Of a DNA stretch of 51,095 nucleotides, positions 11,352 through 32,277 are shown piece by piece. Positions within the stretch are counted from its first letter, which is position 1. Every line of letters begins with the position of its first letter. This DNA is from Prolixibacteraceae bacterium. Lineage in GTDB: Bacteria > Bacteroidota > Bacteroidia > Bacteroidales > Prolixibacteraceae. Location of the stretch: assembly GCA_019459485.1 (NCBI GenBank), contig JAIBEZ010000078.1:1-51095 (forward strand), given 5' to 3'. The position numbers and the translations under genes were made by a program. Below the pieces are notes generated by a model. The model searched no databases, was not told the DNA's origin, and worked only from the letters and a program-made list of their open reading frames with translations.

Positions 11352-11371
11352 TAAGCCGAAAGACGAAAAAG

Positions 11372-11440
11372 GGATCAGTGATCAGTCGCAGTTGACAAAA
11401 AAGCAAAAGTGATCAGCGGTCAGTCGCAGTTTGCAGAAAA
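11372..11440 (+). repeat. Two imperfect tandem copies in the galM leader
   Basis: Copies at 11372-11400 and 11410-11440 share GATCAG-G-TCAGTCGCAGTT with small changes, then an A-rich tail. Each also contains internal GATCAG repeats. It lies in the presumed 5' leader between the galM -7 box and the galM start. No function is evident. Confidence 0.55.
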
Positions 11441-11463
11441 GAATCAAACTAAAATATACTAAC

Positions 11464-25239: not shown

Positions 25240-25596
25240 ATGAAAAAGATTGAAGCAATTATACGCAAAATAAAATTCGATGATGTTAAAATAGCACTCA
25301 ACGAAGCAGGAATTGAATTCTTCTCTTTTTGGGATGTTCGCGGCGTTGGCCAGACCAGGGAAGAACGAATGTATCGTGGTGTCGTTTATGACACAAGCAC
25401 CATCGAACGCACTATTCTCTCCATTATTGTACGGAATAAAAACGTAGAAAAAACAGTACTGGCGATCATGACAGCTGCCAGAACTGGTGAAATCGGCGAT
25501 GGAAAAATATTCGTTTCCGCCATTGAAGAATCTTACCGCATCAGGACCGGTGAATTTGGAGATGAGTCATTGTTCATAAAAGGGAAAGAAATTTAA
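25240..25596 (+). CDS. glnK: PII signal protein, GlnK type (first copy)
   Basis: 118 residues. Trimeric PII fold: start MKKIEAIIRKIKFDDVK; T-loop about 37-55 with MYRGVVYD, where Tyr50 aligns with the uridylylated Tyr51 of E. coli and Tyr45 is also present; B-loop TGEIGDGKIFV, the ATP-binding segment; C-loop YRIRTGEFGDESL. It would bind ATP/ADP and 2-oxoglutarate and plug the ammonium channel encoded 23 bp downstream. No uridylyltransferase gene is in the window. The order porin-PII-Amt suggests a single operon. Confidence 0.92.
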   Translation: MKKIEAIIRKIKFDDVKIALNEAGIEFFSFWDVRGVGQTREERMYRGVVYDTSTIERTILSIIVRNKNVEKTVLAIMTAARTGEIGDGKIFVSAIEESYRIRTGEFGDESLFIKGKEI

Positions 25597-25619
25597 AAAC
25601 AACTAAAAAAACATCAATC

Positions 25620-26876
25620 ATGGACGAAGTAACACTCACATCTTTGGCCGCGTCCGCAGCGGATATGGCCAGATCAATAGATACCATCTGGGTTTTAATA
25701 ACAGCTTCCCTGGTATTCTTCATGCAAGCAGGTTTTGCCCTGGTAGAAGCGGGATTCACCCGTTCGAAGAATACTGTAAACATCCTATATAAAAACCTGA
25801 TGGACTTCTGTGTAGGCTCAATTGTATTTTGGGCATTGGGTTTTGGTCTGATGTTCGGAACAGATATCGCTGGTTTCATAGGAACTCCCGATTTATTTTT
25901 CAAGAATGGATGGACTGGTGGAATTCCTGCAGAAGCTTTCCTGATTTTTCAAACAGTATTTGCAGCAACGGCCGCCACCATTGTTTCAGGGGCGATGGCA
26001 GAACGTACCGAATTTAAATCATACCTGATCTTTTCACTCGTTGTCTCAGCGGTTATCTATCCGGTATCAGGTCACTGGATCTGGGGCGGAGGATGGTTAT
26101 CACAATTGGCAACTCCTTTTCACGATTTTGCCGGATCAACAGTAGTACACATGGTTGGTGGAGTGGTTGCATTAACAGGAGCAATCCTACTTGGGCCACG
26201 TCTTGGAAAATACAACGGAAAGAAAGTAAATGCAATTCCAGGTCACAGCATGACCCTCGGAGCTTTGGGTGTATTTATCCTGTGGCTTGGTTGGTTCGGA
26301 TTTAATCCCGGATCGCAGCTGGCTGCTTCTGGATCTGCAAATGCAACAGCTATCTCCCATATTTTTGTTACCACCAACCTTTCAGCCGTTGCCGGAGCAT
26401 TGGCAGCATTAGTGATTAGTTGGCTTAAATGGGGAAAACCCAGTTTGAGTTTTGCATTAAACGGAGCTTTGGCCGGTTTGGTCGGGGTAACTGCAGGTTG
26501 CGCTGTAGTAACAGCTTCAGGAGCCTTACTGATTGGCCTGATTTCAGGAACAGTACTTGTATTTGCCGTTACATTTATCGACAATGTACTTCATATTGAC
26601 GATCCGGTTGGTGCAATATCTGTTCATGGAGTTTGCGGTGCTTTGGGAACCATCATGGTTGGTTTATTTTCGGAATCAACTGGCCTGTTTTACGGACATG
26701 GAGCAGCTCAACTCGTCACTCAGCTAATCGGAGTCGCTGCAGTTGCAGCGTGGGCTGGGGTAACCGGGTTCATACTTTTCAAAATATTGAAAGCAACCGT
26801 TGGTTTAAGAGTTCCAAAACGGATCGAAGAAGAAGGTCTGGACATATACGAACACGGAGAAAGCGCTTACAATTAA
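25620..26876 (+). CDS. amt: Ammonium transporter, Amt family (no signal peptide)
   Basis: 418 residues, 11 membrane helices. It begins with a short acidic tail and no cleavable signal peptide, unlike the second Amt of the locus. Family features: MQAGFALVEAGFTRSKNTVN in TM1, FAGSTVVHMVGG with the first pore His (about residue 177), and SVHGVCGALGTI with the second (about 335). The C-terminal tail is short and ends DIYEHGESAYN, the typical GlnK-contact tail. It is distinct from the second Amt in sequence, so this is not a recent duplicate. Confidence 0.92.
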   Translation: MDEVTLTSLAASAADMARSIDTIWVLITASLVFFMQAGFALVEAGFTRSKNTVNILYKNLMDFCVGSIVFWALGFGLMFGTDIAGFIGTPDLFFKNGWTGGIPAEAFLIFQTVFAATAATIVSGAMAERTEFKSYLIFSLVVSAVIYPVSGHWIWGGGWLSQLATPFHDFAGSTVVHMVGGVVALTGAILLGPRLGKYNGKKVNAIPGHSMTLGALGVFILWLGWFGFNPGSQLAASGSANATAISHIFVTTNLSAVAGALAALVISWLKWGKPSLSFALNGALAGLVGVTAGCAVVTASGALLIGLISGTVLVFAVTFIDNVLHIDDPVGAISVHGVCGALGTIMVGLFSESTGLFYGHGAAQLVTQLIGVAAVAAWAGVTGFILFKILKATVGLRVPKRIEEEGLDIYEHGESAYN

Positions 26877-26911
26877 TAACTATTTCTTCAACAATTAGAT
26901 TTGTTGTTTTT

Positions 26912-26955
26912 CAAGAAGAGGGGACTGTTGGGGGACAGGCCTCTCTTTCTTTTCC
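26912..26955 (+). terminator. Terminator after the first Amt gene
   Basis: AGAGG (26917-26921)/CCTCT (26940-26944) with an inner CTGT/ACAG stem, then a pyrimidine-rich tail. Moderate strength. The remaining part of the 318-bp gap to the next gene is AT-rich and holds no ORF. Confidence 0.6.
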
Positions 26956-27116
26956 ACTTTTAAGTGCCGAATCATATCTTTTTATAAATTCCATCATTTT
27001 GACATTTTGTGCATATTTACCGCACATTACAATCTATTTTATATCATTTATTAATTTTTTGTATCTTTTTTTAATACAATCAACTCAATTATCAATACAA
27101 CAAATCAATATTTTTA

Positions 27117-27124
27117 TATTTTTG
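27117..27124 (+). promoter_or_regulatory. Candidate -7 box (TATTTTTG) of the second PII-Amt pair
   Basis: Exact TAnnTTTG match 71 bp before the second PII start, in an AT-rich stretch where chance matches are common. No -33 element and no CCCTATTT element are seen. Confidence 0.35.
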
Positions 27125-27194
27125 TTCGCATAAATAATTATAAACTTTCAGGAAAAACCCATTCCTGATTTCACTAACTCAAAATTTAATTGTC

Positions 27195-27539
27195 ATGAAG
27201 AAAATTGAAGCCATCGTTAGAAAAACCAAGTTTGAGGAAGTCCGGGCAGCACTGCACGATGCCGACATCGAATTTCTTTCCTGGTGGGAAGTCAAAGGAC
27301 AGGGCACTGCCCGACAGGGACTCATATTTCGCGGAATTGCCTACGACGTAAATTCGATTTCGCGTATCTGCATTTCATTTGTTGTGCGCGAAATCAATGT
27401 CGAAAAATCGATCAATGCCATTCTTGAATCGGCCTATACCGGCGAAAGCGGTGACGGAAGGATTTTTGTAAGCGACATTGCTCAATCCATCCGCATCCGG
27501 ACCAAAGACCGCGGCGACGAATCCCTCTACAACAAATAA
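27195..27539 (+). CDS. glnK: PII signal protein (second copy)
   Basis: 114 residues. Same fold as the first copy: MKKIEAIVRKTKFEEVRAAL, T-loop with IFRGIAYD (Tyr50 kept, but Phe45 replaces the Tyr of copy 1), B-loop TGESGDGRIFV and IRIRTKDRGDESLYNK. The charge pattern of the T-loop differs (GQGTARQGL against GVGQTREER), so the two PII proteins probably prefer their own Amt partner. It precedes the second Amt gene by 16 bp. Naming as glnK rests on the Amt linkage; glnB would be as good. Confidence 0.9.
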   Translation: MKKIEAIVRKTKFEEVRAALHDADIEFLSWWEVKGQGTARQGLIFRGIAYDVNSISRICISFVVREINVEKSINAILESAYTGESGDGRIFVSDIAQSIRIRTKDRGDESLYNK

Positions 27540-27555
27540 TTTAGCAGCAAATCTC

Positions 27556-28917
27556 ATGAAGATAAAAATAAAATACGCCGGGATGGCATTACTTGGATTA
27601 ATGGCCCCCACCGTCCTTTTTGCTCAGGAAGCTGCAGTAGCAGTAGCAGAACCAACTCCCTATATTGATTTTGGCAACACGGCATGGATGATCGTTGCAA
27701 CAGCATTGGTAATGCTGATGACTATTCCCGGCCTGGCATTATTTTATGGCGGTTTGGTCCGTCAGAAAAATGTCTTGAACATACTGATGCAGTGTTTCAT
27801 TTTAACAGCAGTGATTACCCTCGAATGGGTATTCTTCGGCTATAGTCTTGCATTTAGCTCGTCAACAGGAGTTCTTGCTCCGTTTATTGGCGGATTCGAC
27901 TGGGTACTTCTGAATGGAATTGGAGTTAACGATGTTAGCCCATACTTTATTTCGCAGGAAACTGCCCGAATCCCGCACCTGTTATTTGTTCTGTTTCAGG
28001 GAATGTTTGCTGTCATTACCCCTGCGTTAATTATCGGCGCTTATGCCGAACGTATTAAATTCCGTGGCTTTCTCATTTTCTCCTTACTCTGGGCCATTTT
28101 TGTCTATAATCCTGTTGCACATTGGGTTTGGTCGGCTGACGGATGGTTGTTCAATATGGGTGCTCTTGATTTTGCCGGTGGAACAGTCGTTCACATCAAT
28201 GCAGGTATTGCCGCACTGGTTATGACACTCCTGATTGGAAACAGAAGAAATTACAACAATCACCCAACAGCGCCCCACAGCATTCCATTGGTAGTTATTG
28301 GAACAGCATTGCTTTGGTTTGGCTGGTTCGGTTTTAACGCCGGAAGCGGATTGGCTGCCGACGGATTGGCGATCAGCGCATTCCTTTCAACCCATGTTGC
28401 TACCGCAACTGCTGCTTTAACCTGGGCTTTGCTCGATTGGACAATCAATAAAAAACCAACTGTGATCGGTGTTTGTACCGGTGCAGTAGGAGGACTGGTT
28501 GCCATTACACCTGCAGCTGGTTTTGTTGGAGTACCGGGTGCCGTAGTTATTGGTGTTGTGGTTTCAATCGCGTGTTTCTTCATGGTTTCGGTCGTAAAAC
28601 ACAAATATGGTTACGACGACACGCTCGATGCTTTTGGAGTACACGGAATCGGCGGTATTATTGGTGCACTTTTAACCGGACTGCTTGCCACTCCTGCCAT
28701 TCAGGCATCATACAGCGGTTTATTCTACGGAAACCCGAAACAACTTTGGATTCAGTTAATTGCCACAGTTGCAACCATGGTATTTTCAGGTTTAATGACC
28801 TATGTAATATTTAAAATAGTTGATAAGTTATTTGGAATCCGGGCCACTCAGAAAGAAGAAATTGCAGGTCTCGACATTTCTCAGCACAACGAAATGGCTT
28901 ATGCCGAAAATGATTAA
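27556..28917 (+). CDS. amtB: Ammonium transporter AmtB (with signal peptide)
   Basis: 453 residues from the ATG at 27556, which opens a signal peptide (MKIKIKYAGMALLGLMAP to FAQ); an in-frame TTG 26 codons upstream lies inside the PII gene and is rejected. Eleven TM helices follow, as in E. coli AmtB. Motifs: GLALFYGGLVRQKNVLN in TM1, FAGGTVVHINAG with the first pore His (about residue 212), FGVHGIGGIIGALLTG with the second (about 362), and the GlnK-contact tail ending GLDISQHNEMAYAE. A strong terminator follows. Confidence 0.94.
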   Translation: MKIKIKYAGMALLGLMAPTVLFAQEAAVAVAEPTPYIDFGNTAWMIVATALVMLMTIPGLALFYGGLVRQKNVLNILMQCFILTAVITLEWVFFGYSLAFSSSTGVLAPFIGGFDWVLLNGIGVNDVSPYFISQETARIPHLLFVLFQGMFAVITPALIIGAYAERIKFRGFLIFSLLWAIFVYNPVAHWVWSADGWLFNMGALDFAGGTVVHINAGIAALVMTLLIGNRRNYNNHPTAPHSIPLVVIGTALLWFGWFGFNAGSGLAADGLAISAFLSTHVATATAALTWALLDWTINKKPTVIGVCTGAVGGLVAITPAAGFVGVPGAVVIGVVVSIACFFMVSVVKHKYGYDDTLDAFGVHGIGGIIGALLTGLLATPAIQASYSGLFYGNPKQLWIQLIATVATMVFSGLMTYVIFKIVDKLFGIRATQKEEIAGLDISQHNEMAYAEND

Positions 28918-31592: not shown

Positions 31593-31636
31593 AACGCAGG
31601 TACTTCGGATAAAACCGGATTACCTGCGTTTTTTTT
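31593..31636 (+). terminator. Terminator of the Gfo/Idh gene
   Basis: Stem AACGCAGGTA/TACCTGCGTT (10 bp) with an 18-nt loop that has an ATCCGG-like inner stem, then a T run. The T run overlaps the stop codon of the convergent HTH gene. Confidence 0.85.
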
Positions 31637-31970
31637 ACCTGCTGACCAAATCTTTGAGCGTTTGTCGCAAGATTCCCACCTCCAGTTCCAGCTCTTTCAC
31701 CCGGTTTTGTAGCGCTTCGGCTTCTGACCGATCAATTTCTTTTGTATAATCGGGTTCCGGATAGGAGAGCTTGATGGCTATTTCCCTGAAAAAATTATAA
31801 TTCAGGAATTCTGACAGCTCCGCCAGCCGCTGAACCTGTAAAGTCGGCCGCTTCAACATCCCCGCCACCGACGAATGGTTCATCTTCAACCCGCGCGACA
31901 AATCTGTTGCATTAATGTGTTTGCGGTCCATTTCGCGTCGAATCATGGAGATTATTGGCAGTTGTTCCAT
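31635..31970 (-). CDS. Small HTH (XRE-like) protein with C-terminal coiled coil
   Basis: 111 residues. Residues 8-72 fit a lambda-repressor-like HTH: MIRREMDRKHINATDLSRGL, then KMNHSSVAGMLKRPTLQVQR as the turn and recognition helix, and LAELSEFLNYNFFREI. Residues 85-109 form a strong heptad coiled coil (ALQNRVKELELEVGILRQTL), so it should dimerise or oligomerise. The start lies 40 bp from an array of eight 21-bp repeats, each of which holds a 13-bp near-palindrome; that array is the obvious candidate binding site. No toxin or phage gene accompanies it. Function otherwise unknown. Confidence 0.8.
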   Translation of the reverse strand: MEQLPIISMIRREMDRKHINATDLSRGLKMNHSSVAGMLKRPTLQVQRLAELSEFLNYNFFREIAIKLSYPEPDYTKEIDRSEAEALQNRVKELELEVGILRQTLKDLVSR

Positions 31971-31995
31971 AGCATTTGGTTTTATCGTGAAACAT

Positions 31996-32003
31996 CAAAA
32001 TTA
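31996..32003 (-). promoter_or_regulatory. Candidate -7 box of the HTH gene (TAATTTTG)
   Basis: On the minus strand an exact TAnnTTTG match 26 bp upstream of the HTH start. The -33 region falls on the left inverted end of the 21-bp array, so a protein bound there would compete with RNA polymerase. Confidence 0.5.
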
Positions 32004-32009
32004 CAATCT

Positions 32010-32222
32010 AAAAGTAGCAATATTTGTTTAAAATACATCAGTTCTGATGTATCTTAAACGAATATTGCTGTTTATAAAATAAATGCTGATGTTTATAAGA
32101 TAAATTTAGCGATAAATAGAATAAATATCGCGATACTTAGAATAAGTGTTGCTGTATTTAAAACAAGTGTTTATGTATTTAGAACAAATATTGATGTATT
32201 TACAACAAATATTGCTACTTTT
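32010..32222. repeat. 21-bp tandem repeat array with 31-bp inverted ends
   Basis: Eight contiguous 21-bp units: 32042-32062, 32063-32083, 32084-32104, 32105-32125, 32126-32146, 32147-32167, 32168-32188, 32189-32209. Positions 1 (T), 9 (T), 13 (T), 17 and 20 (A) are the same in all units; the core is TGTATTTAgAACA, a near-palindrome. Left end 32010-32040 and right end 32192-32222 are inverted copies, 29 of 31 bases alike. The last three units are the most similar. Period 21 equals two helical turns. It lies between the HTH gene start and the tonB stop, with no ORF. Confidence 0.85.
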
Positions 32223-32277
32223 TGCTCCTAATTTGATGTATAATGTATTAAATTTCTACACCGGCGGAGCAAAGTAT

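Follow-up and report, generated by a model that had tools for sequence, protein, structure and literature searches.

A small helix-turn-helix (HTH) gene preceded by an array of degenerate repeats spaced at about two turns of the DNA helix recurs across related Bacteroidia, and the combination of gene and upstream phased array is, as judged from the sequences, a family trait: an array within 450 bp upstream was found for 51 of 72 different homologues. The letters of the repeat unit differ between loci while spacing and position are kept, and unit and protein diverge together. The reading that we favour, at a probability of roughly 0.6, is that the gene encodes a solitary autorepressor whose dimers would coat a private, phased operator array, working in the manner of KfrA.

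The array and the HTH gene in the window

The window is the whole stretch of DNA analysed here, 51,095 bp of a Prolixibacteraceae bacterium, and forms a complete contig (C31) of a 5.5 Mb genome. The features of interest are as follows.

31635..31970, minus strand: HTH gene encoding 111 amino acids, with a Cro/C1-type HTH (HTH_26) and, at the C-terminus, a stretch of heptads (from the ORF list and Pfam)
31996..32003, minus strand: TAATTTTG, candidate -7 element for transcription of the HTH gene, located 33 nt 5' of the ATG
32010..32040, no strand: left arm of the inverted ends, matching 32192-32222 in reverse complement at 29/31 positions
32016..32036, plus strand: reversed, promoter-proximal unit, differing at a single position from the unit pattern of the opposite strand (z = 5.1)
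32049..32216, minus strand (the gene strand): eight direct 21-bp units (self-offset score, TRF and pairwise identity)
32192..32222, no strand: right arm of the inverted ends, pairing with 32010-32040 (29/31)
approximately 31634..32277, no strand: extra segment, made up of gene and array, that relatives lack in their tonB/oxidoreductase gap, from gap comparison and with approximate borders

The first-pass annotation of this DNA had described eight contiguous 21-bp units, and these are confirmed by a mean pairwise identity of 0.66 as against 0.32 in shuffled sequence (sd 0.02, maximum 0.38, 1000 shuffles), by a self-offset score of 77.4 at period 21 over 32045-32222, and by TRF calls of the same period at 32100-32145 and 32137-32214. 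The 450 bp 5' of the HTH gene score 77.5, and the highest score among 40 dinucleotide shuffles is 17.5. Scores of at least 22 are reached by four of the 226 overlapping tiles of the window, two on the 21-bp array and two on a separate repeat at 11359-11443, which has an offset of 38 bp and a score of 28.5. The inverted ends are exactly as had been claimed, 31 bp with 29 identical, and extend to 43 nt at 86% identity; the gene was likewise correctly placed, its start lying about 40 bp from position 32010. A ninth, reversed unit is located between the eight direct units and the gene.

Two other features attributed to the array did not hold up. Its unit had been thought to contain a near-palindromic core, and yet its similarity to its own reverse complement (0.33) is below the mean of 0.44 for column-permuted units (p = 0.88). 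The array had also been seen as bounded like a discrete element, but the HTH gene lies outside the inverted ends and reversed units are common elsewhere: of 46 arrays 19 have one at p < 0.02, many of these being simply palindromic; the inverted ends were accordingly rejected as element borders. Searches for RNA families returned just two weak plant-type miRNA matches, below gathering scores.

The putative -7 element fits all six specified bases of TAnnTTTG, the Bacteroidota -7 consensus. With TAATTTTG at 31996-32003 as the -7 element, the predicted -33 region falls inside the reversed unit at 32016-32036, in agreement with the earlier proposal that the -33 region of the gene lies on the left end of the array. 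The 111-residue protein matches Pfam HTH_26 at 24.1 bits against a cut-off of 22 (E = 4.3e-5), which places it among Cro/C1-type HTH proteins, and its C-terminal heptad stretch may be read as a short coiled coil. Profile matches to coiled-coil chains are weak (E of 0.07 or worse), and the search for closely related solved structures gave none, with a best E of 0.069. NCBIfam holds no family above cut-off for the protein, and PHROGs and PADLOC gave weak HTH matches only. Elsewhere in the window, at 25240-28917, the ORF list contains two adjacent pairs resembling PII and ammonium-transporter genes.

Recurrence of the arrangement among homologues

Homologues were found in 13 of 61 relatives and, patchily, in 36 of the 140 genomes of the family; a looser profile, which also catches a related array-less subfamily, found one in 96 of 395 genomes of the class, and a phylum sample of 395 genomes yielded 18, all from the same class. 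For each fetched homologue the 450 bp 5' of the gene were scanned for self-similarity at offsets of 15-69, with 40 dinucleotide shuffles each, and an array was called where the score was at least 3 above the best shuffle and the period fell within 19-22, 40-44 or 61-66. The 93 upstream stretches scanned led to a tree of 73 rows and 72 different homologues, leaving out proteins identical to another, copies that are truncated or lie at a contig end (L016, L021, L051, L053, L052 and others below 80 aa), a duplicate (L040) and a copy with a short upstream stretch (L055); L111, the same record as L035, was excluded from the recount.

A check suggested earlier was whether arrays adjoin homologues of the HTH gene in related genomes, and the recurrence of the arrangement supports such a link. 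Homologues in the close family were not mostly devoid of arrays: among the window genus, the family and named records a clear array is present in 38 of 44 rows and the best period lies near 21, 42 or 63 in 43, the weak arrays being those of L013, L039, L050, L120, L121 and L128; for L128 the upstream sequence is limited to 167 bp. The class sample has arrays in 13 of 28 rows; the 15 rows without one come mostly from the other subfamily, and 2 of them have their best period within the band. Of 24 additional loci from the phylum sample, checked with 15 plain shuffles, five carry a clear array, with periods of 21, 22 and 44, and one more is borderline. On the 73-row tree, whose deep forks lack resolution, the array label needs 10 changes as against 18.5 when shuffled, and none of 500 shuffles was as low.

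The arrays span 97-374 bp, with a median of 212, and the best periods of the passing rows are 20 (1 row), 21 (31), 22 (1), 41 (4), 42 (10), 44 (1) and 63 (4), both tallies covering 52 rows with one duplicate among them. Array periods follow the helix, at two or four turns and multiples. Since they are not all multiples of three, the arrays are not coding repeats; a coding heptad repeat, in which 21 bp would equal seven codons, is excluded by the periods of 20, 22, 41 and 44 bp. In 17 of 20 regions, which total 937 tiles and about 216 kb, an array of this type precedes the HTH gene, and L096, L099 and L100 have no upstream match at a score of at least 22. The only other tiles of such a period in these regions are two short 42-bp-lag repeats just 3' of the gene in one genome (G024), and further matches scoring at least 22 comprise three repeats of 15, 25 and 51 bp. 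Comparison of the homologues indicates that two-turn spacing and position persist and that unit sequence does not. At three loci from genomes of two families (L087, L094 and L093), copies with a period of 41 or 42 bp lie near one gene pair, a gcvP-like ORF of 954 aa and an ORF of 212 aa, which is perhaps an old shared site.

Divergence of unit and protein

Units were compared among 44 arrays of the 21-bp class, for which the null 95% level of unit similarity is 0.43. Where protein identity is at least 0.8, 23 of 24 pairs exceed this level; the count is 46 of 98 at identities of 0.5-0.7 and 91 of 824 below 0.5, where 5% would be expected by chance. Paralogues within the window's own genome are already apart, the window and C35 copies having a protein identity of 0.70 and a unit similarity of 0.41, below the null level. 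Loci L010 and L011 have one flank in common (924 bp at 75%) with unrelated units (0.37) and a protein identity of 0.58, and L007 and L008 reach a unit similarity of just 0.43 at a protein identity of 0.82. These comparisons suggest that protein and array are one co-evolving unit; the joint decay fits co-evolution, would equally be given by neutral drift of both, and is no proof of binding.

Conserved columns do not cluster into a core within the unit (4 of 45 arrays at p < 0.05; Fisher statistic 104.8 on 90 df), so that a design of conserved core and spacer was rejected, and a palindromic operator is not the rule, with 15 of 52 consensus units palindromic and the window unit not among them. 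No common binding mode is therefore visible. Compensated hairpins were also rejected as a general explanation: within-unit covariation, scored as the maximum statistic over axes, is significant at p < 0.05 for 11 rows out of 51, of which 47 are gene-linked arrays and four derive from gene-less arrays, two of these four overlapping; the window array gives 0.645. The signal is strong in L059, L024 and the arrays L154 and L156 of genome G008, and is inflated by a 42-bp alternation in L012, L018 and L035. Small hairpin-like units whose stems vary yet remain complementary can be seen in L154 (about 2355-2650), L059, L060 and L024, the covariation in L060 not being significant (p = 0.381).

The turnover of unit letters between subfamilies, with no conserved core, is what would be expected if the arrays had arisen by slippage in AT-rich DNA and stood beside the gene by chance, with no role. 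We regard this as very improbable, because position and period recur at many loci with unrelated letters, among them the GC-richer array of L011, and because the related array-less subfamily differs, with 2 of 15 class-sample negatives having their best period in the band.

Proposed mechanism and comparison with known systems

In the autorepressor reading, the HTH protein would dimerise through its C-terminal helix, and dimers would occupy successive 21-bp units on one face of the DNA, coating the private array. The promoter-proximal end would meet the -33 region of the gene's own predicted promoter, so that a filled array would silence the gene, and the many in-phase units could make this autorepression steep and cooperative, perhaps with some benefit to the cell. 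If the match between protein and array is the only tight constraint, both may drift together, leaving a private unit at each locus. The first-pass annotation had already proposed an autoregulated HTH protein that coats the array; this part is strengthened by the comparison of homologues, and the array end reaches the predicted promoter region, as an autoregulator would require. The palindrome, the element borders and the partition role that accompanied it have been dropped. Against an autorepressor, arrays of hundreds of base pairs exceed the length needed for repression.

Should the protein bind the array, these loci would represent many natural protein-operator pairs with unrelated letters on one scaffold in several Bacteroidia families, and thus a set from which to learn how Cro/C1-type HTH specificity changes and to draw orthogonal regulators. 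They would also offer a way to ask why a cell retains up to about 17 phased sites before one small gene, and an example of tandem repeats in a bacterial gap that are constrained in spacing and free to drift in sequence.

The closest likeness is to KfrA of plasmid RA3, reported to be an oligomeric HTH and coiled-coil autorepressor whose operator has five 9-bp repeats, three in one orientation and two in the opposite one, and whose tail runs from residue 54 to 355 (PMC7783346); KfrA relatives form filaments on the operator (PMC7821693). KfrA of RA3 and R751 resembles the present protein in its N-terminal HTH, helical tail and operator of direct repeats, some of them reversed, at its own promoter, the promoter being predicted here. 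It differs in that it is encoded on a plasmid and its tail comprises some 300 residues, whereas the window protein is chromosomal and 111 residues long, and in its 9-bp repeats, against 21-bp units of two turns in arrays of 97-374 bp whose letters vary between relatives. By analogy, the HTH/array locus may work like KfrA; we claim neither relatedness nor membership, since the long tail is absent.

BldC of Streptomyces forms head-to-tail multimers on direct repeats in sites of varying length (PMC5859096). The likeness lies in a small HTH protein with direct repeats, multimer coating being BldC's own feature; BldC differs in its MerR-like fold, its lack of a coiled coil and its developmental regulon, whereas the present HTH is of Cro/C1 type and, unlike the BldC regulon, the window unit has no further sites in its own genome. 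Plasmid iterons and centromeres, too, consist of tandem repeats spaced at roughly two turns of the helix, to which the product of a neighbouring gene binds. The present arrays differ from these in being chromosomal, several per genome, and with no linked replication or partition gene among the matches listed. No described system of this kind was recognised in searches of the open-access literature.

Partner genes, replicons and phages

With their phased direct repeats 5' of a small HTH gene, the loci resemble plasmid centromeres. Such a likeness could point to a partition or centromere-like system, as could the contribution that KfrA binding to its own repeats makes to RA3 stability (PMC7783346). 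Among the matches listed, the HTH gene is the sole ORF cluster common to all of 35 regions, the next commonest, response-regulator-like, being present in six. Distances from dnaA, as fractions of half the genome, are 0.10, 0.77, 0.66, 0.84, 0.55, 0.56 and 0.59, with no bias toward the origin across these seven genomes (about four independent loci), and genomes hold several differing paralogues each. With neither a shared partner gene nor an origin bias, the partition-like switch suggested earlier finds hardly any credence; a plasmid-type system was rejected, as no NTPase or partner cluster is linked among the matches listed for the 35 regions.

A leftover phage or plasmid immunity repressor with its operators is similarly far-fetched. 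The HTH weakly resembles phage repressors (phrog_4583, E = 1.5e-4), but plasmids gave no homologue at E <= 1e-5 (72,556 records) and phages none at E <= 0.01 (50,697 records). Strict patterns matched viral contigs 40 times, and no match encodes a relative. A phage immunity repressor was rejected within the sensitivity of those searches.

Insertion, duplication and mobility

In the window, gene and array sit between convergent tonB and Gfo/Idh-type oxidoreductase genes. No HTH match occurs at any of 18 tonB loci of relatives; ten of these loci have both neighbouring genes, and gene and array are absent from all ten. The gap measures 721 bp in the window compared with 131-316 bp in nine relatives and 734 bp in the tenth, where another ORF, about 200 aa long, occupies it (L138, G006), so this site accepts insertions. 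The simplest reading is that gene and array were inserted together in the window lineage, with repeated loss as the alternative. In G024 the C37 copy matches the C3 copy at 95.7% across 956 bp covering array and gene; beyond this, similarity stops save for short repeats, and the flanks mostly differ. The gaps around the three G024 copies (L083, L084 and L085) are rich in short dispersed repeats. Loci L010 and L017 are an example of copies inherited in place, and some gene copies are truncated. Gene and array would, in the autorepressor model, move and duplicate as one piece.

Searches of about 786 kb of fetched sequence for transposase linkage gave one Y1 (IS200-type)-like ORF, at L155 3936-4505 on the plus strand, about 1 kb from a gene-less array and below the Pfam cut-off (E = 0.0056). 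Mobility through RAYT was set aside on this single weak match, and a transposable element was rejected, with no recurrent transposase and direct repeats of any size around gene and array at 3 of 52 loci only. At L067 a 58-bp direct repeat (88%) closely flanks array and gene.

Arrays without the gene

Four genomes were searched with their own units. In the window's genome (G000) the window unit gave six outside matches at three mismatches against five for the reversed control, and so marks its own array only; the unit of the C56 array has no array elsewhere in that genome, and G024 units were found only at the three gene copies. G008 has a gene-linked array on C637 and three others, on C40, C462 and C334, in whose vicinity the HTH gene has left no trace; a single weak match on C639 is not an array. 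In G227 the gene-linked array on C81 is accompanied by a row of related units on C33, 3' of a gene named from its sequence as that of ribosomal protein L16, with no HTH ORF within the 3 kb read. Arrays with no HTH neighbour had been named as a sign against the link, and this came true in part: they exist in two of four genomes, alongside gene-linked arrays. Each of the four gene-less arrays sits in a gap at the end of a gene, in two cases between convergent genes, and autorepression alone does not explain them; in the autorepressor model they may serve as extra coated sites or sinks.

These arrays lend some weight to a different account, in which the locus is a minimal element of a selfish or architectural kind. 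Here the array would spread, satellite-like, and the protein would condense, bridge or protect its copies, with autorepression as a side effect. The insertion at the window tonB site, the duplication in G024, the gene-less arrays at three sites in G008 (two between direct repeats) and one in G227, and the patchy presence in 36 of 140 family genomes, with truncated copies, are all in its favour. It has to contend with the lack of a linked transposase beyond the lone Y1-like ORF in about 786 kb, with direct repeats around gene and array at only 3 of 52 loci, and with the finding of no gene-less arrays for the window unit, the C56 array of the same genome or G024. We consider it rather unlikely. 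Tentatively, and still with more doubt than confidence, the locus may be seen as a bacterial counterpart of satellite DNA co-evolving with its binding protein, in which spacing is kept while array letters and protein specificity turn over together, and which would insert and duplicate as a unit in Bacteroidia and seed arrays coated in trans.

Two of the gene-less arrays in G008 are flanked by direct repeats of 100-123 bp.

L155, 2538-2657 and 3018-3139: direct repeats (80%) flanking a gene-less array, G008
L156, 2844-2943 and 3308-3407: direct repeats (88%) flanking a gene-less array, G008

The L156 repeat recurs (74%, 98 bp) just 3' of the HTH gene in another genome, G011 (L005, 1383-1480).
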